Shown here piece by piece: positions 1 through 9,354 of a DNA stretch of 10,026 nt. The position numbers were made by a program, and so were the translations under genes. How positions within the stretch are numbered: the first letter of the stretch is position 1; each line of letters opens with the position of its first letter. The notes beneath the pieces were generated by a model. That model had not been told where the DNA came from. It was given only the letters and a program-made list of their open reading frames with translations, and made no database searches. The stretch is taken from the NCBI GenBank assembly GCA_002382025.1, contig DFZB01000007.1, forward strand, positions 11,521-21,546, read 5' to 3'. The stretch comes from Patescibacteria group bacterium UBA4067. GTDB lineage: Bacteria > Patescibacteriota > Minisyncoccia > Minisyncoccales > Minisyncoccaceae.

Positions 1-1
1 T

Positions 2-102
2 TTTGAAAGAAATTACATAGTACAGAAAACACATGATTTAGATCCAGATACTGTTTATTATGCTAGAGCTTATGCAACTAATGAAACAGGTACTGGTTAT
101 GG
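2..102 (+). repeat. Fn3-like module repeat, copy A
   Basis: This 101-base stretch matches 401-501 with 7 mismatches, an offset of 399 bases (133 codons) that keeps frame. It encodes the end of an Fn3-like module (FERNYIVQKTHDLDP, then YYARAYATNETGTGYG). The high DNA identity suggests recent duplication or gene conversion, and more copies probably lie upstream of the window. Confidence 0.9.
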
Positions 103-1903
103 AGAACAAAAAGTATTCACCACGAGAAGCGATATTTGTACTTATGCTGGAGGAGTTCTTCTTTGTCACAATGAAGTGGTGAGACATCCAGAAATAGTTA
201 TACCAGTTGTTCAAACCAATACCAGTCCTGACCCTTATTTACCATTTTATTCTGGTGGAACAATAGTTGATACTGGTATTACCTATTATTCAGGTCCAGG
301 AGTTTACAAAGTACAAGCTCATGGTGTTTGTGTCAGTAAATCTCCAATGCCAACAACAGCTGATATTTGTTATAACAATGGTCTTGGTGAAGAAGGTGCT
401 TTTGAAAGAAATTATATAGTACAGAAAACACATGATTTAGATCCTAATACTACATATTATGCTAGAGCTTATGCAACTAATGAAACAGGCACTGGTTATG
501 GCAATCAAATTACATTTACTACTAGAGAAGATTATTGTGTATTTAGTGGAGGAAGAACAATGTGTTATGATTTAGGATATAATACTGCTAGTTATACTAG
601 TTGTGGTGATAATTTCCTTGACTCCAGAAATGGTCAAATATATTCAACTAAAATGTTTGGTTCTCAATGCTGGATGACTAAAAATCTTAATTATGCCACT
701 GGCACAAGCTGGTGTTATGATAATAACTCAGCCAACTGTATTACCTATGGTCGTTTATACAATTGGTCTACAGCAACAGCTGCTTGTCCTTTAGGATGGC
801 AATTACCAAGTGATGCTGATTTTACTACCCTAGAAAGTATAATTGGTTCTGAACGAACAACATGGATGAATTCTAGTGGCTGGGCTGGCTTGTATGGTGG
901 TAGATACGATAATACTAGCAGTACCTTCAGTAATCTTGGTACAATTGGATACTGGTGGTCATCTACTTCGTCTGGTGACGATGCTTGGACTAGAAGTCTT
1001 AGTTCGGGTAATTCTACTGTATTGCGCGATGTCTACAATCAAGGACGTGGGCTTTCAATTCGTTGTATTCAACTTCCTCAGCAATCAGCTCCAAATGCAC
1101 CAACCATGGCTTCTCAAACATCAAGTAGTATTACTCTAAATGAATGTTCTGGAGGTGGATGCGAATATCGATTAGGTAATGGTAGCTGGCAGACATCAGC
1201 TGTGTTTAGTGGATTAACACCATTGACAAGTTATTCCTTTACTCAAAGAAAAGCTGCTACTGAAAGCTTTAGTGTCTCACCGCCAAGTAGTTCAGCAAGT
1301 TTTAGTACTCTATGGGAATGTGGTGTTAATTTCACTGATGAGAGAGATAGTCAAGTATATTCAACTAAAGTGTTTGGCTCTCAATGTTGGATGACTAAAA
1401 ATCTAGCTTATCTTCCTAGTGTAGTGGGTCCTGGAACAGGAAGTGAATCAATTTCATATTATTATGTCTATGATTATGATGGAACAGATGTACCAACCGC
1501 GAAATCACAAACAAATTATACTAACTACGGCGTCCTCTATAACTGGACTGCAGCAGCAAGTGCCTGTCCTACGGATTGGCATACACCAAGCGATACTGAA
1601 TTCAAAACACTTGAAATGCATTTAGGTATGACGCAAGTGCAAGCTGACGCTACTGGTTGGCGCGGAACAGATCAAGGTACAAAAATGAAATCTGGTGGAA
1701 GCTCTCAATGGAATGGTTTATTGGGTGGTATTCGTACTGTAGATAGTAATTTTAGCTACCTTGATTCACGTGGAAGCTGGTGGTCGTCTACTCAGTCGGG
1801 TGACAATGTTTGGAGTCGATCTTTAGATTCGGGTTATGCCACTGTTAATCGCGTTATTGACAATCGAAGTTTAGGGTTTTCACTTCGCTGTGTCCATGAT
1901 TAA
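2..1903 (+). CDS. Large modular surface protein with Fn3-like repeats and two FISUMP domains (5' end outside the window)
   Basis: The frame is open from the first base, so the start lies upstream; the first in-window ATG (176) falls inside a repeat and is not a credible start. Order of domains: the end of one Fn3-like module, a complete second module (about 185-520, with the motif YYARAYATNETGTGYG), FISUMP 1 (602-1072), an Fn3-like linker (about 1083-1315) and FISUMP 2 (1319-1900). Both FISUMP domains show the family hallmarks: Cys-Gly start, QCWMTKNL, YG.LYNW, CP..W..PS, a WWSST motif and a terminal RC. FISUMP (Fibrobacter succinogenes major paralogous domain) is related to the C-type-lectin/formylglycine-enzyme fold and probably binds ligands outside the cell; the actual ligand is unknown. 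No membrane anchor is visible in this part, so any signal peptide or anchor should be upstream. The gene ends with TAATAA. Domain calls come from motif recognition, without a profile search. Confidence 0.9.
   Translation, partial: FERNYIVQKTHDLDPDTVYYARAYATNETGTGYGEQKVFTTRSDICTYAGGVLLCHNEVVRHPEIVIPVVQTNTSPDPYLPFYSGGTIVDTGITYYSGPGVYKVQAHGVCVSKSPMPTTADICYNNGLGEEGAFERNYIVQKTHDLDPNTTYYARAYATNETGTGYGNQITFTTREDYCVFSGGRTMCYDLGYNTASYTSCGDNFLDSRNGQIYSTKMFGSQCWMTKNLNYATGTSWCYDNNSANCITYGRLYNWSTATAACPLGWQLPSDADFTTLESIIGSERTTWMNSSGWAGLYGGRYDNTSSTFSNLGTIGYWWSSTSSGDDAWTRSLSSGNSTVLRDVYNQGRGLSIRCIQLPQQSAPNAPTMASQTSSSITLNECSGGGCEYRLGNGSWQTSAVFSGLTPLTSYSFTQRKAATESFSVSPPSSSASFSTLWECGVNFTDERDSQVYSTKVFGSQCWMTKNLAYLPSVVGPGTGSESISYYYVYDYDGTDVPTAKSQTNYTNYGVLYNWTAAASACPTDWHTPSDTEFKTLEMHLGMTQVQADATGWRGTDQGTKMKSGGSSQWNGLLGGIRTVDSNFSYLDSRGSWWSSTQSGDNVWSRSLDSGYATVNRVIDNRSLGFSLRCVHD
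401..501 (+). repeat. Fn3-like module repeat, copy B
   Basis: Second copy of the 101-base repeat at 2-102. The seven differences are mostly in the codons just before the YYARAYATNE motif. Beyond the repeat the two copies diverge (GEQKVFTT against GNQITFTT), so only the core of the module is strongly conserved. Confidence 0.9.
635..687 (+). repeat. FISUMP N-terminal DNA repeat, copy A
   Basis: A 53-base stretch of FISUMP 1 encoding QIYSTKMFGSQCWMTKNL. It matches 1352-1404 of FISUMP 2 with 4 mismatches at an offset of 717 bases (239 codons). The two FISUMP domains are therefore paralogous copies that are still close at the DNA level at this end, which contrasts with their diverged tails. Confidence 0.85.
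953..1069 (+). other. FISUMP 1 tail, candidate variable region
   Basis: These 39 codons run from WWSST to the terminal RCI. In lectin-fold targets of diversity-generating retroelements this part of the fold carries the variable ligand-binding residues. Aligned without gaps to FISUMP 2 (1778-1894), 24 of 39 codons differ: 13 only at positions 1 and/or 2, 4 only at position 3, and 7 mixed. The conserved skeleton is WWSST..GD..W.RSL.SG..TV.R...N...G.S.RC. The variable-region role is inference, since no template repeat was found. Confidence 0.4.
1352..1404 (+). repeat. FISUMP N-terminal DNA repeat, copy B
   Basis: Counterpart in FISUMP 2 of the stretch at 635-687, encoding QVYSTKVFGSQCWMTKNL. 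Two of its four differences are synonymous (GGT/GGC and TGC/TGT), unlike the tail regions, where changes fall mainly at codon positions 1 and 2. Confidence 0.85.
1778..1900 (+). other. FISUMP 2 tail at the C-terminus, candidate variable region
   Basis: The last 41 codons of the gene, from WWSST to RCVHD. The segment sits at the very C-terminus, is followed after 10 bases (including TAATAA) by a hairpin, and has many NNT/NNC codons, as expected if AAT/AAC codons of a template had been mutated. T-ending codons are common anyway in an AT-rich genome, so this is suggestive only. The terminal stretch TTCGCTGTGT also recurs at the end of the FISUMP gene at 5353-6105. Confidence 0.4.
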
Positions 1904-2064: not shown

Positions 2065-2730
2065 ATGAATCATAAAAACTTATTATTAATTTTATTCTTC
2101 TGTCTTTTTTTAACTCCTTTCATGGCCAATGGTGCAACTGTTGGGGGTTACTTTCAAATAGACGTTAATGTTTTGCGAGATGGAAACAACAATCCTATTT
2201 CCTTAAATAATATTGCTTTATATAGAGACGAACAATCAACATTCCCCGAATTCTTTACAGGAGAAACCATTTATGAGGGTTATTCATATACCTCTTTGTA
2301 TCAAGAATTAACTGTGGGTCAGAGTTATACGTTGGGGTTTGGGAATATGGCTGCGAAACATTTGCGAGCAAACAGTTCGCTAGCCGGCATAATGGTACTG
2401 TTATCTACTAGTACTAACTGTACTACTAGTTGTGCGGACAAGGGCTTTTCGTGCACGGATCAAGCACAGCAACAGCTTGCAGCGAATATTACCGTAGCCG
2501 AGCAGGGTCGTTTGTTGGGCTCTTATACGCGGACCTGCTTGGCCACAGGTGCACCGCTTCGTAGTAATGGTTATAATGTAGGTGGGAGTTGGGAATATGT
2601 ACTCGCCACCGCCCCATCAGACCTTAGCACCGTAACATGCACTTCCGCTGGGTATTGCACAACTCAACAAACCAGCTGCCAGGGGCGACTTTGCGCTTGC
2701 GGTGGATGGAAAATAGTTGTAACAATATAA
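2065..2730 (+). CDS. Small secreted Cys-rich protein of unknown function
   Basis: 221 residues with a clear N-terminal signal peptide (MNHKN, hydrophobic 6-20, likely cleavage near ANGA at 21-24), so it is exported. Residues 25-95 look beta-rich. From about residue 119 on there are nine cysteines (119, 123, 130, 158, 192, 198, 205, 210, 212), which suggests a disulfide-stabilised extracellular domain. I do not recognise the family. The 3' half (about 2340-2710) is near 50-57% G+C by local counts while neighbouring genes are near 25-35%, which suggests recent acquisition or a chimeric gene. No Shine-Dalgarno sequence precedes the ATG. It is convergent with the reverse transcriptase gene and ends 17 bases before an intrinsic terminator. 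Confidence 0.75.
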   Translation: MNHKNLLLILFFCLFLTPFMANGATVGGYFQIDVNVLRDGNNNPISLNNIALYRDEQSTFPEFFTGETIYEGYSYTSLYQELTVGQSYTLGFGNMAAKHLRANSSLAGIMVLLSTSTNCTTSCADKGFSCTDQAQQQLAANITVAEQGRLLGSYTRTCLATGAPLRSNGYNVGGSWEYVLATAPSDLSTVTCTSAGYCTTQQTSCQGRLCACGGWKIVVTI

Positions 2731-2747: not shown

Positions 2748-2780
2748 GGTCCAAGGGTCAACCCTTGGGCCTTTTCTTTT
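2748..2780 (+). terminator. Intrinsic terminator after the secreted-protein gene
   Basis: GGTCCAAGGG, loop TCAA, CCCTTGGGCC forms a 10-bp stem with a single T-G wobble, followed by TTTTCTTTT. It clearly ends plus-strand transcription. Read on the minus strand the same hairpin lies downstream of the reverse transcriptase stop, but there its T-tract is weak, so bidirectional use is possible but poorer. Confidence 0.9.
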
Positions 2781-2803: not shown

Positions 2804-3952
2804 TTAACTTTTGTTTTTATTGATTAAGCTTTTGTTTAATTTTGATATATTCTTTTCCATGTTTTTAATTAAACTGGTTAGCTTGTTTAATTGTTCTAGG
2901 ATTAATTTTTGTTCATATTTAAAGTTAATATTGTTTAATAAAAGATTGTTGTGCTTGTTTCTTTGACCAGTTTTTGTTTCTTTCTTCTTCTTTTTTCTAG
3001 AAATGCCCCTTTTCTTTTGGTCATGTTTTTCTTTTATTTCTAATAAAGATTTTAATCCCATGCTTTTTAAAGTGTTGTTGGTTAGAATTAGATTGCTTTG
3101 TTTGTTTTTGCTATCTTTGTTTTTAGATAAATATCTTCTAATTCTCATTCTAATAAAAGAATCAAGTTTATTAAAGTCTTTTTTACAAGAACATATTTTA
3201 TAATAATGTCCAAAGCCAAGTATTTTATTATTTAATAATTTAATAATTACTTTTTCAGGTTTTTTCTTGGTTAAGTGAGTAATATTTATTATCTTATTCT
3301 TTAATTCTTGTATTTTCTTTTCTTTGATTGAAAAATAGCCTGCGTAAAAGTCAAAACCAATAAAACTTATTCTATTTTTGTGAAATCTTCCTGAAATTAG
3401 TTTTTTTTCATTGATTTCTAAGTTTAATTCATTTAATTTAGGAATAATTACTTGTTTAAGTATTTGTTCTGGTTCTTTTTTGTTTTTACAGAAAACAAGG
3501 TAATCATCTGTTTGTCTTAGAAAAGGGCGAGGTATTTTAAGATCAAGTTTTAACAGAAAGATTCCAGCTAAAACATATGATAATTTAGAACCAATTGAAA
3601 GACCCTTTCTATATGGAGATTGCTTAAGGAATTCATTGATAATAGCAATATTTCTTTTGAATCTTCTTGATATTGTTTTTCCAGTTAATTGAATGTATGT
3701 TTCAGGAATTTCATTAATTAATATCTGGTGATTAATTGAGGGAAAATAGAGGTGAATATCAAAATAAAGGAAATAGGGGTATTTTTTTGAATTGATTCTA
3801 ATGAATTCTAACGATTTTTTAGGAATTGGTTGAATCAAATAATGTTCTTTTAGTCTTTGTTTTATTTTTGATTTATATTTCCTTAATAGAAAATTAGACA
3901 ATATTTTATTACTTATTTTTAATTTAAAATAGGGAAGATTGCTTTTATTCAT
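2804..3952 (-). CDS. Reverse transcriptase, DGR/group-II-like, with unusual active-site motif
   Basis: 382 residues. Palm motifs are readable in order: motif A FDIHLYFPSINHQIL (Asp65, very like DGR enzymes), motif B KGLSIGSKLSYVLAG (116-130, in the IGxxxS form rather than the group-II QGxxxSP), motif C RQTDDY (Asp149, Asp150) and ISFIGFDF (195-202). A thumb-like GFGHYYK segment with a following arginine-rich helix (247-274) recalls group-II maturases. Odd points: Gln replaces the Tyr of the usual YxDD; motif A comes at residue 65, so the N-terminal fingers are short; the C-terminus has a Lys/Arg tract (313-332) and a predicted coiled coil (343-378). An in-frame TAA 9 bases upstream of the start region confirms the short N-terminus. 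No endonuclease domain, retron motif or intron domain V was seen. DGR membership is inferred from motifs and FISUMP neighbours; a non-DGR or unknown-group enzyme is possible. Confidence 0.85.
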   Translation of the reverse strand: MNKSNLPYFKLKISNKILSNFLLRKYKSKIKQRLKEHYLIQPIPKKSLEFIRINSKKYPYFLYFDIHLYFPSINHQILINEIPETYIQLTGKTISRRFKRNIAIINEFLKQSPYRKGLSIGSKLSYVLAGIFLLKLDLKIPRPFLRQTDDYLVFCKNKKEPEQILKQVIIPKLNELNLEINEKKLISGRFHKNRISFIGFDFYAGYFSIKEKKIQELKNKIINITHLTKKKPEKVIIKLLNNKILGFGHYYKICSCKKDFNKLDSFIRMRIRRYLSKNKDSKNKQSNLILTNNTLKSMGLKSLLEIKEKHDQKKRGISRKKKKKETKTGQRNKHNNLLLNNINFKYEQKLILEQLNKLTSLIKNMEKNISKLNKSLINKNKS

Positions 3953-5352: not shown

Positions 5353-6105
5353 ATGAATCAACAAAAGAGAATGTATTTGCTAATAGGTGGTTTAGTTTTT
5401 GCAATAGTTTTCTTTTTCTTAGCAATTATTAATAAAGATTCTTCTTCTGTAGACTTAAACAAGAATTTTCAATGCGGAGACAATCTTGTTTACGGAGATT
5501 ATAATTATAAAACCGTGAAGATTGGTAATCAATGCTGGATGGCAGAGAATCTTAAAACCACTGTTTATAGAGATGGAACAAATATTTTAAATATTCCTGA
5601 CAGGGGAGAATGGTCTGCAGATAAAAAAGGTGGATATTCTTGTTATCATAATGATATTAAGAATTGTGAAAGTTATGGAGCTTTGTATAATTGGTATGCA
5701 GTAACAAATCCTTCCAGCTTGTGTCCTAAAGGATGGAGTGTTCCTAGCCATGAAAAATGGTCAATTTTAGAGCAATCAATTTGTAATAAATTAGGACATT
5801 CTAATTGTGAAGAAACTTTTTCTACTAGTCAAAGCGTAATGGGTTGGAAAGGAAGTGACGAGGGAATAAATTTAAGAACAACAAGTTTAAATGGTAAAGA
5901 TGCTTATGGGTTTACTGCTTTATTCTCTGGATTCCGTAATTCAAATGGACCTTTTTCTTTTATCCAGGAAAATGGTTTTTGGTGGACATCAACTTCTTCT
6001 AATGAATATGCTATTGGAAGAACCATGGATTTAAAAAACACAGGAATTCGTAGAATTGAAAGTATGAAAAGCAGTGGATTTAGTGTTCGCTGTGTAATGG
6101 ATTAA
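5353..6105 (+). CDS. Membrane-anchored FISUMP protein, canonical
   Basis: 250 residues. An N-terminal hydrophobic segment (8-26) anchors the protein, followed by a short Ser/Asp linker and one nearly textbook FISUMP domain (41-250): CGDNL, YKTVKIGNQCWMAENL (52-67), YRDGTNI, YGALYNWYAV (108-117), CPKGWSVPSHEKW (124-136), a GWKGSDEG segment, FSGFRN, FWWTSTSS (209-216) and the terminal GFSVRCVMD. The tail uses ordinary AT-rich codons and shows no sign of hypervariability by eye. The PilX-like gene follows after 17 bases with no terminator between, so the two probably share a transcript. That links this lectin-like protein to pilus biogenesis by context. Confidence 0.92.
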   Translation: MNQQKRMYLLIGGLVFAIVFFFLAIINKDSSSVDLNKNFQCGDNLVYGDYNYKTVKIGNQCWMAENLKTTVYRDGTNILNIPDRGEWSADKKGGYSCYHNDIKNCESYGALYNWYAVTNPSSLCPKGWSVPSHEKWSILEQSICNKLGHSNCEETFSTSQSVMGWKGSDEGINLRTTSLNGKDAYGFTALFSGFRNSNGPFSFIQENGFWWTSTSSNEYAIGRTMDLKNTGIRRIESMKSSGFSVRCVMD

Positions 6106-6122
6106 CGTGTGTTAAATAAAAG

Positions 6123-7322
6123 ATGAACAAAGAAAGAGGTTTTATTGCTTTAACATCGGTTTTAATAATTATGGCTGTGATTATGGTTTTGGGTATCACG
6201 GCATTTCATTCAAGCCTAACAGATCAAGCAATAAGCGTATCGTTTGATAATGGTCTCGAAGCTTCTACGTTAGCCCATGCTTGTGCTCAAGCAGGTTTAT
6301 CCATATTAAAAGATGATATAAATTATTCTCAAGGATATGGTTATTTAGACCTTAACAAAGAAGAGATTCTCATAGATGGAATAGCTTGTGATGCTTTAGA
6401 AATAGAAGATGTAAATAGTTATACTAAAAGAGTTTCTTCTTTGGTTTTAGTAGGAGAAAGACCTAATTTTAAAAGAGCTGAAGCTGAATTAAAATATTTA
6501 ATACAATCAAATTCTAGTGATTGGCAAAATTGGACAACAGATAACGTAGAAATAGTTAATAATTCTCTTGTTTTGGAACCTGGTGAAGAGGTTATAAAAC
6601 AAAGAACAACTAATACTGGAGCAGGTTGGCTTAATTCTTTTGAAATGACAGATTTAGCAGTTAATGGAAATGATTTAACGCTTTTGGAAACAGAAGGTGT
6701 TTTTGCTTCTCAAGGAACAAGAATTTCTAATCCTTATTCTTTAAGCGAAATAGTTTTTTATGAAAGTAGTGAAATTGTTTGGGTAAATGACAAGCCAGAA
6801 GGAACAGATATAAAGATATACACAGCTGTTAATAATAATCCAAGCGCAATTCCAGTAAATTGGCTAGAAGCAACAAGCGGAAATTCTATTCCAGGAATAA
6901 ACATAGGAGATAATTTAAGCGACAAGTTTTTATGGACGAAAATAGAACTTTCAACCACAAACACATCTTTAACTCCTTTGCTTCATAGTTTAACAGAAAC
7001 AATTTCAATGACTGGATCATCCTTTGGTGAAGCAGAGTCAATTAGTTTTGATATTTTTGATAATGATTCAAGAGAAATAAAAAATGCTAAGATTTTTTGG
7101 CAATCTCAAGAAGGAACAAATAGTCAAATTGTTTTTGAAATTAATGTATATAATGGTAGCGAATGGCTTGGCTGGGAGCAAGTTAAAAATGGTAATAATT
7201 TATTAAATCTAGAAAATGAAATAATGAGAGATGATATGGAAATAAAATTAAAAGCTATTTTTTCTGGCAACAGGTCTTCCTATCCAAGTTTAAATGAAGT
7301 TAAAATATTTATTGAATTATAA
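6123..7322 (+). CDS. PilX/GspK-like minor pilin with beta-rich C-terminal modules
   Basis: 399 residues. A type III signal peptide (MNKERG, cleavage after Gly6) precedes the hydrophobic pilin helix (7-27). The usual Glu at mature position 5 is Thr, as in GspK-type tip pseudopilins. Residues 50-130 are the PilX-like part with cysteines at 54 and 89. The C-terminus has two similar beta-sandwich-like stretches: about 220-295, ending in the pattern ELSTTNTSLTPLLHSL, and about 305-399, ending in FSGNRSSYPSLNEVKIFI. Both resemble modules common in CPR surface proteins, though I did not confirm the family. Likely an initiator or tip subunit carrying a binding module. It lies 17 bases after the FISUMP gene, and its stop is 2 bases from the stop of the convergent LamG pilin gene. 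Confidence 0.8.
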   Translation: MNKERGFIALTSVLIIMAVIMVLGITAFHSSLTDQAISVSFDNGLEASTLAHACAQAGLSILKDDINYSQGYGYLDLNKEEILIDGIACDALEIEDVNSYTKRVSSLVLVGERPNFKRAEAELKYLIQSNSSDWQNWTTDNVEIVNNSLVLEPGEEVIKQRTTNTGAGWLNSFEMTDLAVNGNDLTLLETEGVFASQGTRISNPYSLSEIVFYESSEIVWVNDKPEGTDIKIYTAVNNNPSAIPVNWLEATSGNSIPGINIGDNLSDKFLWTKIELSTTNTSLTPLLHSLTETISMTGSSFGEAESISFDIFDNDSREIKNAKIFWQSQEGTNSQIVFEINVYNGSEWLGWEQVKNGNNLLNLENEIMRDDMEIKLKAIFSGNRSSYPSLNEVKIFIEL

Positions 7323-7324
7323 TC

Positions 7325-8908
7325 TTATTTTAAAAAGAAATTATTGTCATTCAAAAATATTTCTAGTTTTTCTTTATTATTAAGAATTTTATTATAAATT
7401 CTTAAATCATCAATGATTCCAGTAAATTTATTGCTTTGGTTTGCTTTTTGTCCAACATAGAGATTGGAATTATCACCAGCATTAGAAAAACTTGAAGAAG
7501 TAGTGTTAATTATTTCTACGTTGTTGATATAAATTTTTCTATCAATATTGTTATAAGTTAATAAAAGATGTTGCCAATTTTCTTTAACAGCAATGTTTAA
7601 AGCTTTAACAGAGGTTAAATTGCTTTCTTGGCCTTTGCTTATTGCCCATTCATATCCTTTTTCAGCTTCGTTGTATGAAAGAGCAAAAGAATAATCATTG
7701 GTTCCTGTAGCGCGTTTATGTAGTAAAACCATTGTTTGTTCGGGTAAAGATTCAGGCAATTTTACCCACAAGGAAATTGATATTTCATCTTCTATTTGTA
7801 GGGATTGAAAATCCATGATTTCTAAAAAGTTATTTTGATTAAAGCCATAGGCTTTGTTTTCTTTTTCAAATCTAGAAAGTGTCCATAAATCAGATTGACA
7901 ATTTCTAATGTAACCATGATTGCGATTCTCAGTATTATCATGAATTATGCATCCTTCTCCTTCATCAAAATTCCAACTTGCTATTAATTGTTCTATGGTG
8001 GATATTTTTAATTTTTTCTCTTTTTTTGCACTATATTTTTCATAAAGACCAGCAATATGAGTAGAGGTTAAAGAATAATTATATATTCTTACATCATTAA
8101 TAGAACCATTCCAGACATTATTATTAGTGCTGTCTGCACCAATAGTAAATTTAATATTTGAAGCAGTGTTTAATAAATTAATGCTAGTGTTTTTTGAATT
8201 TTTTAATTCTCCATTTATGTAAATACGAATACATGGTTCTGCTGGATCAAAAACACCAAGAACATGATTCCATGTATTTTCATCAATAACTTCAGTTGAT
8301 ATAGTATCATATCCTTGTGTTCCAAAGATTTTAAAGACATAAAAGTTATTTTCTTTACTTAAAACATAGGAACCTGTTTGCGTGTTTTCATTATACTTTC
8401 CAGCAATTATTCCGTTTTCTTCGGTACTAATAACCCAAGCAGAAATAGTAAGAGGACCTGTTAATTGTAAAGACAAATCATTAAATACTCTAATGTTGCT
8501 ATCAATTCCATTAAATTTTGCTGCATTAAATAATTGTTCTTTTCTATCTCTACCAAAATCTACATTATTCATTGTTGCTTCGTTTTCATATATACTTTCA
8601 TCTGTAATATCGTTTGATAAAAGAAAATGACCCACAAGTCCTCCTTTGGGTATTAATATCCATTCATTATTATTTATTCCAATTTCATAACTTCCAGGAG
8701 TAAGAAGCGAAGAATCTTTTTTTTCTATTGAAAGACCAGCTTCCCATATTTCAGTTGAAAGAAGGTGAGAATTGGTTCTTTCTAGACTTTTAATTCCTCC
8801 CTTGGTTCCCCCTACGAATAATACAAAAATTCCTGCCATTCCCAAAGAGAAAATAGCCATTGCTGTAATTAATTCTATTAAAATTAACCCATGTTCTTTA
8901 TTTTTCAT
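7325..8908 (-). CDS. Minor pilin fused to two LamG (concanavalin-like) domains
   Basis: 527 residues, far longer than an ordinary minor pilin. The N-terminus is a class III prepilin signal (MKNKEHG, cleavage after Gly7) with Glu at mature position 5 and a hydrophobic helix (8-31), PilV/PilW-like. Two jelly-roll LamG domains follow: about 90-300 (FNGIDSNIRV, LTISAWVIS, WNHVLGVFD, IYINGELKNS, INDVRIYNYSL) and about 310-520 (ASWNFDEGEG, EISISLWVKLPE, WQHLLLTYN, IYINNVEI, IDDLRIYNKIL). LamG domains commonly bind carbohydrate or other extracellular ligands, so this is a plausible pilus-tip adhesin. Its start overlaps the stop of the FimT-like gene by 4 bases (ATGA), giving translational coupling; a GAAAGTGA stretch just upstream may act as a weak ribosome binding site. 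Confidence 0.9.
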   Translation of the reverse strand: MKNKEHGLILIELITAMAIFSLGMAGIFVLFVGGTKGGIKSLERTNSHLLSTEIWEAGLSIEKKDSSLLTPGSYEIGINNNEWILIPKGGLVGHFLLSNDITDESIYENEATMNNVDFGRDRKEQLFNAAKFNGIDSNIRVFNDLSLQLTGPLTISAWVISTEENGIIAGKYNENTQTGSYVLSKENNFYVFKIFGTQGYDTISTEVIDENTWNHVLGVFDPAEPCIRIYINGELKNSKNTSINLLNTASNIKFTIGADSTNNNVWNGSINDVRIYNYSLTSTHIAGLYEKYSAKKEKKLKISTIEQLIASWNFDEGEGCIIHDNTENRNHGYIRNCQSDLWTLSRFEKENKAYGFNQNNFLEIMDFQSLQIEDEISISLWVKLPESLPEQTMVLLHKRATGTNDYSFALSYNEAEKGYEWAISKGQESNLTSVKALNIAVKENWQHLLLTYNNIDRKIYINNVEIINTTSSSFSNAGDNSNLYVGQKANQSNKFTGIIDDLRIYNKILNNKEKLEIFLNDNNFFLK

Positions 8909-9354
8909 AAATCACTTTCTATCATACCTTCTGAATTAATAGTTATTGTTTTATAACCATTGGCATAATGTAGTCTAATAAAAAGATTTTCTTCTTGGGT
9001 GATTGGTAAGCCAGTTGATTTTTCAAAAATTATTTCATTCGCTCCACTAATTATCATTGATGTGGAAAAGGAAACAATCGTGTCTAATGGTTTTTTTCTT
9101 TCTTCATATGAATTTCCTTCAAATATTGTATAGTCGTTTTCAGTAATTTTAACACCAGCATTACTATCTCCGCGACCCGTGATTGCTACTGCTTGAGCTT
9201 TTCGCAAGCTACTTTCTACGCTTCTTGTTTGATCTCTCAGGGCAGTATTAAAAAAAAGATTAGAATTGATTATAAAGGCTAAGCTTAAAACTGCGGAAAT
9301 TAGAACCGCAACAATTAGCAACTCAATTAATGTAAAACCCTTTTTCATAAACAT
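8905..9354 (-). CDS. FimT/GspH-like minor pilin
   Basis: 149 residues. Classic prepilin N-terminus: K-K-G then FTLIELLIVAVL, with cleavage after Gly6 and Glu at mature position 5. The rest fits the GspH/FimT family: an amphipathic helix with SSLRKAQAVAITGRGD (48-63), then beta strands with IIFEKSTGLP (108-117). Members are minor pilins needed to start pilus assembly or, in FimT, for DNA uptake. Two starts are possible, ATG at 9354 or the in-frame ATG at 9348. The strong -10 box ends only 12 bases upstream of the first, so the leader is very short and the second start may be the real one. It is first of a two-gene unit with the LamG pilin. Confidence 0.88.
   Translation of the reverse strand: MFMKKGFTLIELLIVAVLISAVLSLAFIINSNLFFNTALRDQTRSVESSLRKAQAVAITGRGDSNAGVKITENDYTIFEGNSYEERKKPLDTIVSFSTSMIISGANEIIFEKSTGLPITQEENLFIRLHYANGYKTITINSEGMIESDL

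Follow-up and report, generated by a model that had tools for sequence, protein, structure and literature searches.

A UG38 reverse transcriptase in Minisyncoccales lies convergent to a silently randomised variable gene that it may diversify

Introduction

DGR reverse transcriptases (RTs) carry [ILV]GxxxSQ as their motif B. In the portions of the DGR literature cited here, the target needs a hairpin just past the variable region, with a GC-rich stem of 7-10 bp, a 4-nt loop of consensus GRNA and a distance of 4-34 bp from the variable region (PMC3240598); mismatches overwhelmingly face template adenines (PMC8144416), and Fib_succ_major is a known target domain (PMC4159848). Two other kinds of RT need to be considered. 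UG17 (DRT10) is presented in the portion of PMC12632851 cited here as a defence RT, and that portion, together with one of PMC12483538, describes UG17 as making tandem-repeat DNA on an ncRNA and the Abi RTs as making untemplated DNA. Unusual modes of synthesis therefore have precedents among these RTs. Polymerases of the Abi type are characterised by template-independent, protein-primed synthesis. UG38, whose name we take from PADLOC, is an 'unknown group' RT with no role, function or target gene described in the literature reached by our searches.

Here we describe a UG38 locus in a 10,026-nucleotide stretch of DNA ("the window") from the genome of Patescibacteria group bacterium UBA4067, of the order Minisyncoccales (contig DFZB01000007.1; genome G000 below). 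The RT gene had been picked out in a first-pass annotation of the sequence. Our main result, which is absent from that annotation, is the variable gene convergent with it; a link between UG38 and a convergent, silently randomised variable gene is likewise not described in the literature that our searches reached.

Results

The window RT belongs to UG38

The RT gene (Table 1) runs from ATG to TAA without an internal stop, and its product exceeds the cut-offs of the Pfam families RVT_1 (51.4 bits) and GIIM, the thumb of group II intron RTs (44 bits). The PADLOC-DB profile RT_UG38 (PDLC03777) matched residues 2-308 over profile positions 4-309 of 309, ending at window residue 308, and all 27 of the relatives sampled matched it too. 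In a tree of 27 RT rows the 14 UG38 rows fell together (100/99), the 8 rows typed as DGR formed a separate group with one untyped row (100/100), and three long branches fell elsewhere. By this tree UG38 is separate from the DGR enzymes.

Table 1. Features of the UG38 locus in the window, with the evidence for each.
Feature	Position	Strand	Evidence or remark
Convergent gene, 221 aa, proposed target	2065..2730	+	ORF list, homologues
Constant N-terminal part, residues 1-87	2065..2325	+	
Hypervariable part, residues 88-207	2326..2685	+	fourfold sites A16 C15 G16 T19
Constant C-terminal end, residues 208-221	2686..2727	+	
Best high-G+C segment	2313..2708	.	G+C 0.52 vs 0.33 outside; -438 to -42 from hairpin core
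Hairpin between the convergent genes, 10-bp stem, 4-nt loop, core 2751-2768	2748..2771	+	terminator-like for the + strand gene
UG38 reverse transcriptase gene, 382 aa	2804..3952	-	PADLOC RT_UG38 468.9 bits; Pfam RVT_1 + GIIM
Motif A Asp, residue 65	3758..3760	-	
QTDD, residues 147-150, catalytic Asp pair	3503..3514	-	
Thumb (GIIM), residues 214-287	3092..3313	-	Pfam
RT tail past the RT_UG38 profile end, residues 309-382, basic linker + long helix 336-381	2807..3028	-	

The first-pass annotation had drawn attention to several oddities of this protein. The early motif A Asp (64 residues precede it), the QTDD and the Lys/Arg-rich tract (at about residues 308-335) are all present in the intact ORF, and the long C-terminal helix that it expected appeared in an AlphaFold2 model as a single helix. 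The window RT has no N-terminal part of the fingers and aligns to GsI-IIC from residue 63 of the latter on. Scoring of 7,994 candidates gave 186 homologues at E<=1e-3. Among 109 aligned proteins D65 was kept in all 107 rows that are ungapped at that position, D149 in 108 of 109 and D150 in all 109; the residue before xDD was Q, F, Y, I or V, with Gln the commonest (50/109), and a short N-terminus was common to the relatives. Judged by this alignment, the Gln and the short N-terminus are traits of the UG38 group and not peculiar to the window copy, i.e. the oddities of the RT are real but ordinary for UG38. The proposal of a divergent clade is supported, UG38 lying apart from the DGR RTs, though it is weakened insofar as these features are usual within a group that already has a name. 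The further possibility that the gene is a degenerate pseudogene was rejected, since the ORF is intact, homologues are numerous and the catalytic Asp residues are kept in them.

It had also been proposed that a partner like Avd is fused at the C-terminus of the RT. We rejected this proposal as unsupported: BLASTP against the genome's own Avd-like protein gave a best E of 4.6, the tail consists of a basic linker and one long helix, and the RT aligns with the UG17 profile up to residue 369. A Pfam scan of ten window ORFs matched no Avd family, but such a scan may miss Avd-like proteins of the kind that this genome encodes. Two ordinary DGR RTs accompanied by Avd-like genes are present in G000, at L001 (G000:C42) and L002 (G000:C41).

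UG38 matches at E<=1e-60 were found in 8 of the 247 genomes of the order, G000 included, in 2 of 383 genomes of a class sample (E<=1e-50) and in 1 of 379 of a phylum sample (E<=1e-60), and the UG38 genomes in the two wider samples again belong to Minisyncoccales. Fifteen stretches of the viral_contigs set matched a pattern and none of them encodes a UG38 relative; phage records gave 4 matches, unannotated and at 23-25% identity; plasmid records gave 350, the best 20 of which had 24.8-29.2% identity, those annotated all being group II intron RTs. Carriage of UG38 by phages or plasmids was rejected on these results.

The convergent gene is constant at both ends and hypervariable between them

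The product of the convergent gene has a hydrophobic N-terminus that by eye resembles a signal peptide, and is probably surface-exposed. It matched no Pfam family, and its fold model was weak (pLDDT 62.7), with no structural match at E<=0.001. Nine relatives, of 210-238 aa, were identical to the window protein in 52-68 of 68 columns over residues 20-87 and in 11-14 of 15-16 columns at the C-terminal end, with only 41-59 identical of 124-138 columns in the middle part (gaps counted). The indels lie in the middle, and two of the relatives are without the N-terminus. The nearest case is P0126, which matches the window protein in 68/68 columns at the start and in 50/138 in the middle and has 235 residues against 221. 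Its contig is 11,567 bp long, as is the longest contig of P0001, an RT of 97% identity, and from this equal length we infer that they share one contig. Framework residues of the variable tract are kept across the relatives, among them C119, C123, C130, C192 and a DLSTVTC block.

G000 has 28% G+C and a GC4 of 0.14, and the fourfold sites of residues 1-87 (A8 C5 G2 T15) and 208-221 (A4 T4) flank near-equal use of the four bases in the hypervariable part (Table 1). By GC3 over the last 100 codons the gene ranked 1st of 427 ORFs (0.45; mean 0.18, sd 0.06), followed by a pilin-like gene and then by the variable protein of the genome's ordinary DGR, and by GC4 in 120-codon windows it ranked 2nd, behind the pilin-like gene. 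The window's own three Fib_succ_major genes do not have raised GC4 (0.08-0.20). A binomial test that set the 31/66 of the tract against 0.14 gave p 1e-10, which is post hoc, the tract limits having been chosen after looking. Segmentation gave a gain of 23.4 for the window against a null maximum of 22.6, the null being the 164 of 200 drawn pieces that were scored after those with >20 N were dropped. The pilin-like gene (N_methyl, DUF2341; L110:5765-7084, G000:C58) has a GC4 of 0.477, as high as that of the target, and no RT was found on its contig.

Within the tract, GC4 was 0.46 at conserved and 0.48 at variable residues in the window, and 0.53 and 0.46 in a second target gene (locus L028, below), against 0.25 (window) and 0.22 (L028) at the conserved residues of the N-terminal parts. 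Silent sites of conserved residues are thus as randomised as those of variable ones, which would be explained by a process that strikes every position, with selection on the protein acting afterwards. If errors arose only at the adenines of a fixed template, framework codons and T should have stayed unchanged, which fits the observed composition poorly.

A hairpin separates the two genes, and the layout recurs

The target stop is followed by 20 nt, the hairpin core, 35 nt and the RT stop. The hairpin has the loop TCAA and a T-rich tail. Its core, CCAANGGTYAANCCTTGG, was found once in the assembled bases searched of G000, with no second site at <=2 mismatches.

The full layout of target stop, hairpin and RT stop was present in 3 of the 8 UG38 genomes: G000, G017 (L028) and G118 (L034). 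At L028 the target is a Fib_succ_major protein, the hairpin has a 9 bp stem and a 6-nt loop, and the two spacings are 34 and 76 nt. At L034 the target has 578 residues and a Cys-rich terminal domain with the C-x3-C-x6-C and C-x-C spacing of the window target, the hairpin folds poorly (z -1.8), and the spacings are 48 and 51 nt. The high-G+C tract adjoins the hairpin at all three loci, extending from -528 to -42 relative to the core at L028 (G+C 0.55 vs 0.35) and from -576 to +24 at L034 (0.50 vs 0.35). What is observed is thus the gene order at three loci, a window family that is constant, variable and constant in turn, and near-equal bases over some 400-600 nt directly 5' of the hairpin, also at the silent sites of conserved residues.

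The hairpin pattern occurred in 3/8 UG38 genomes against 2/239 others (Fisher, p 2e-4, post hoc because the pattern was derived from those loci). The two UG38-free genomes carry the core at one site (G029) and two sites (G171), with no variable gene beside it, and the backward control pattern was found once in each of two genomes. P0012 (UG38) and P0177 (Fib_succ_major), which come from the same source and both lie on contigs of 5,909 bp, are perhaps another case: P0177 and the L028 target agree in 65/82 columns over the first part and in 31/92 and 22/118 over the parts that follow.

The remaining five genomes do not show the full layout. In G054 (L030) the hairpin core lies 60 bases from the RT, with an N run between them and the contig end soon after. 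In G106 (L024, L031) UG38 is intact, yet this hairpin is missing and no neighbour is unusual in composition. A short palindrome (L024:211-245, 1505-1535, 7098-7125) lies on either side of the gene and recurs on the contig inside a 323-bp repeat, like a dispersed intergenic element. The G167 copy (L032) is a pseudogene with one stop. The gene convergent to it (L032:8034-8630) ends in His-Thr-Asn/Asp repeats, and the sequence after these may be a decayed hairpin copy. In G067 (L029:42-2889) a C-terminally shortened UG38 gene and an ordinary DGR RT gene overlap at the 3' end of the latter, not far from an Avd-like gene; this is either a real rearrangement or an assembly join.

In G022 (L033) UG38 is cut by the contig end. 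The order of a Fib_succ_major, a PilX-like, a Laminin_G_3 pilin-like and a pilin-like gene at window 5353-9354 is the same at L033:4979-8724 (50, 35, 48 and 51% identity), and on the strength of this conserved order UG38 may have been long kept beside a pilus cluster. On the other side, at G000:C7:8145-13423 (window 1-1903 and the sequence before it), a long ORF with repeats stops at C7:11540, and modules like its own go on in another frame into a window Fib_succ_major ORF, as if a long adhesin gene had been frameshifted.

No template repeat was found

We looked for a template repeat in 588,988 of the 592,661 assembled bases of G000 and found none for the UG38 target. In a scan with no penalty for mismatches at template A, the control DGR scored 104.2 and the UG38 target 18.8 (VR masked) against 19.4 for a shuffle; with a milder penalty the target scored 22.2 against 25.3, 21.0 and 21.7 for three shuffles. 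The control is the ordinary DGR of the genome at L002, whose template-variable pair has 14/14 mismatches at A. Self-comparison of the UG38 contigs gave no adenine-biased repeat pair, and blastn gave no template in G000 or G118. The sole strong second match in G017 (C10:214-327, 77%, E 1e-17) was rejected as a template, being a paralogous Fib_succ_major gene cut by the contig end, in which, with a weaker second piece, 60 mismatches in 219 ungapped bases comprise 31 at third codon positions and 16 facing A of the paralogue. The genomes are 85.6% (G000), 93% (G118) and 73% (G017) complete, so a template could have been missed. When profile A2 was used to search for silent donor cassettes, its one match in G000 was the target gene, and the other 246 genomes gave none; this search is insensitive, since the profile also misses the L034 target.

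The G017 paralogue, which is not known to adjoin UG38, has a GC4 of 0.36 in its Fib_succ_major domain, compared with 0.13 for the N-terminal part. In that genome the composition at L028 may therefore be a trait of the domain, which counts against reading it there as the product of diversification.

Discussion

The locus resembles a DGR in that an RT adjoins a gene whose variable 3' part is followed shortly by a hairpin, in the raised GC3, as in the target of the genome's own DGR, and in the (I/L)G of motif B. The window hairpin is of the DGR type, although its loop differs from the DGR consensus. However, UG38 is another RT clade, and its target is convergent to the RT. The SQ of motif B, present in all 8 rows typed as DGR, is missing: the window reads IGSKLSY, and the commonest residues at the SQ site among the 109 relatives are Y63 W22 H10 F9 S2 Q2. 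Moreover, no template repeat was found in the assembly, and in the UG38 target all four bases and the length vary. On these comparisons UG38 would work like a DGR and yet departs from the DGRs in clade, in motif B and in a template within the assembly. No DGR without a template is described in the literature reached by our searches, part of which returned mostly unrelated papers.

RT_UG17 was the second-best profile (window residues 10-369) and matched all 27 UG38 members scanned, but the window alignment begins only at UG17 profile position 87, and the enzyme studied in the cited portion of PMC12632851 has YVDD where the window has QTDD. None of the ten window ORFs scanned with Pfam matched a family of the SLATT type, the partner found with UG17. 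Rfam gave 0 matches in the window, with no DRT10 model in the search, and the 5' flanks of eight UG38 genes were unlike one another by eye. The group II intron RTs and maturases differ in that the window RT reaches 97 bits with TIGR04416, against a cut-off of 300, and in the late start of its GsI-IIC alignment; the same Rfam search gave no group II intron RNA around the RT ORF.

Our preferred reading is that UG38 would diversify its convergent neighbour as a DGR-like enzyme, probably with the neighbour's own transcript as its template. We hold it tentatively, at a little short of an even chance. A self-templated form of the reading, which we regard as somewhat unlikely, would have the 3' end of the target's own mRNA re-copied from the hairpin and written back with no template repeat. 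The RT would recognise the hairpin either as a DNA cruciform or in RNA form, at the 3' terminus of a target mRNA that could finish with this terminator-like structure; it would copy the mRNA inaccurately, and the error-laden cDNA would replace the 3' part of the gene. Because the template would be the current gene and not a fixed repeat, each round would start from the last, and errors of every kind, indels included, would accumulate within the reach of the cDNA while selection keeps the framework of the target. With the hairpin placed as in a DGR, no template found, and all bases and lengths varying, the target's own mRNA would be the simplest template. The altered fidelity suggested in the first-pass annotation gains indirect backing from the base usage seen in the gene next door, and nothing ties it to the Gln. 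Against diversification by UG38 stand the small number of full loci (three only), the G106 copy with neither hairpin nor variable neighbour, the hairpin core in UG38-free genomes, the poor folding of the hairpin at L034, the raised GC4 of the G017 paralogue, the incompleteness of the genomes, and the pilin-like gene of G000, whose GC4 is as high as that of the target although no RT was found on its contig.

Some of these points also serve an account in which UG38 is an anti-phage RT like UG17 and the neighbour evolves fast by recombination and selection without it, taking its composition from imported DNA: G106 lacks a variable neighbour, and GC4 is raised both in the pilin-like gene and in the G017 paralogue. 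The rank of the UG17 profile, that of a defence RT in PMC12632851 as far as cited here, adds to this. We nevertheless judge the account unlikely, as two further targets, one a Fib_succ_major protein and one Cys-rich, show the same layout, the tract lies against the hairpin at all three loci, the ten window ORFs scanned matched no SLATT-type family, and imported DNA would not yield near-equal use of the four bases between the host-like ends of one gene. It is decidedly unlikely that UG38 is an ordinary type of DGR whose fixed template repeat lies in an unassembled part of the genome or has diverged past recognition. The incompleteness of the genomes, the hairpin directly after the target gene as in the DGRs of PMC3240598 and the Fib_succ_major target at L028, a DGR target domain in PMC4159848 (both in the portions cited), speak for it; however, the scans of G000 and the blastn search of G118 gave no template, the G017 match is a paralogue with mostly third-position and not adenine-biased mismatches, and indels, randomised silent framework sites and T as low as A misfit adenine-only errors. 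Finally, near-equal base use and length variation would also follow if UG38 made untemplated random DNA that is inserted between the constant ends of the target, much as Abi RTs make untemplated DNA in the cited portions of PMC12632851 and PMC12483538, and the missing N-terminal part of the fingers could be counted in its favour. Fresh random sequence would lose the Cys residues and the DLSTVTC block that the tract has kept, and we consider this very improbable.

If UG38 does diversify its neighbour, RT-driven diversification arose more than once and needs no template repeat, and programs that seek template-variable pairs would miss such systems. The composition signature, i.e. near-equal silent sites between host-like ends, can be searched for beside other orphan RTs. 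Should the self-templated form be true, a tract of 400-600 nt would drift in all four bases and in length, bacteria would possess a counterpart of somatic hypermutation, and the diversification of proteins by RTs would have originated a second time, independently.
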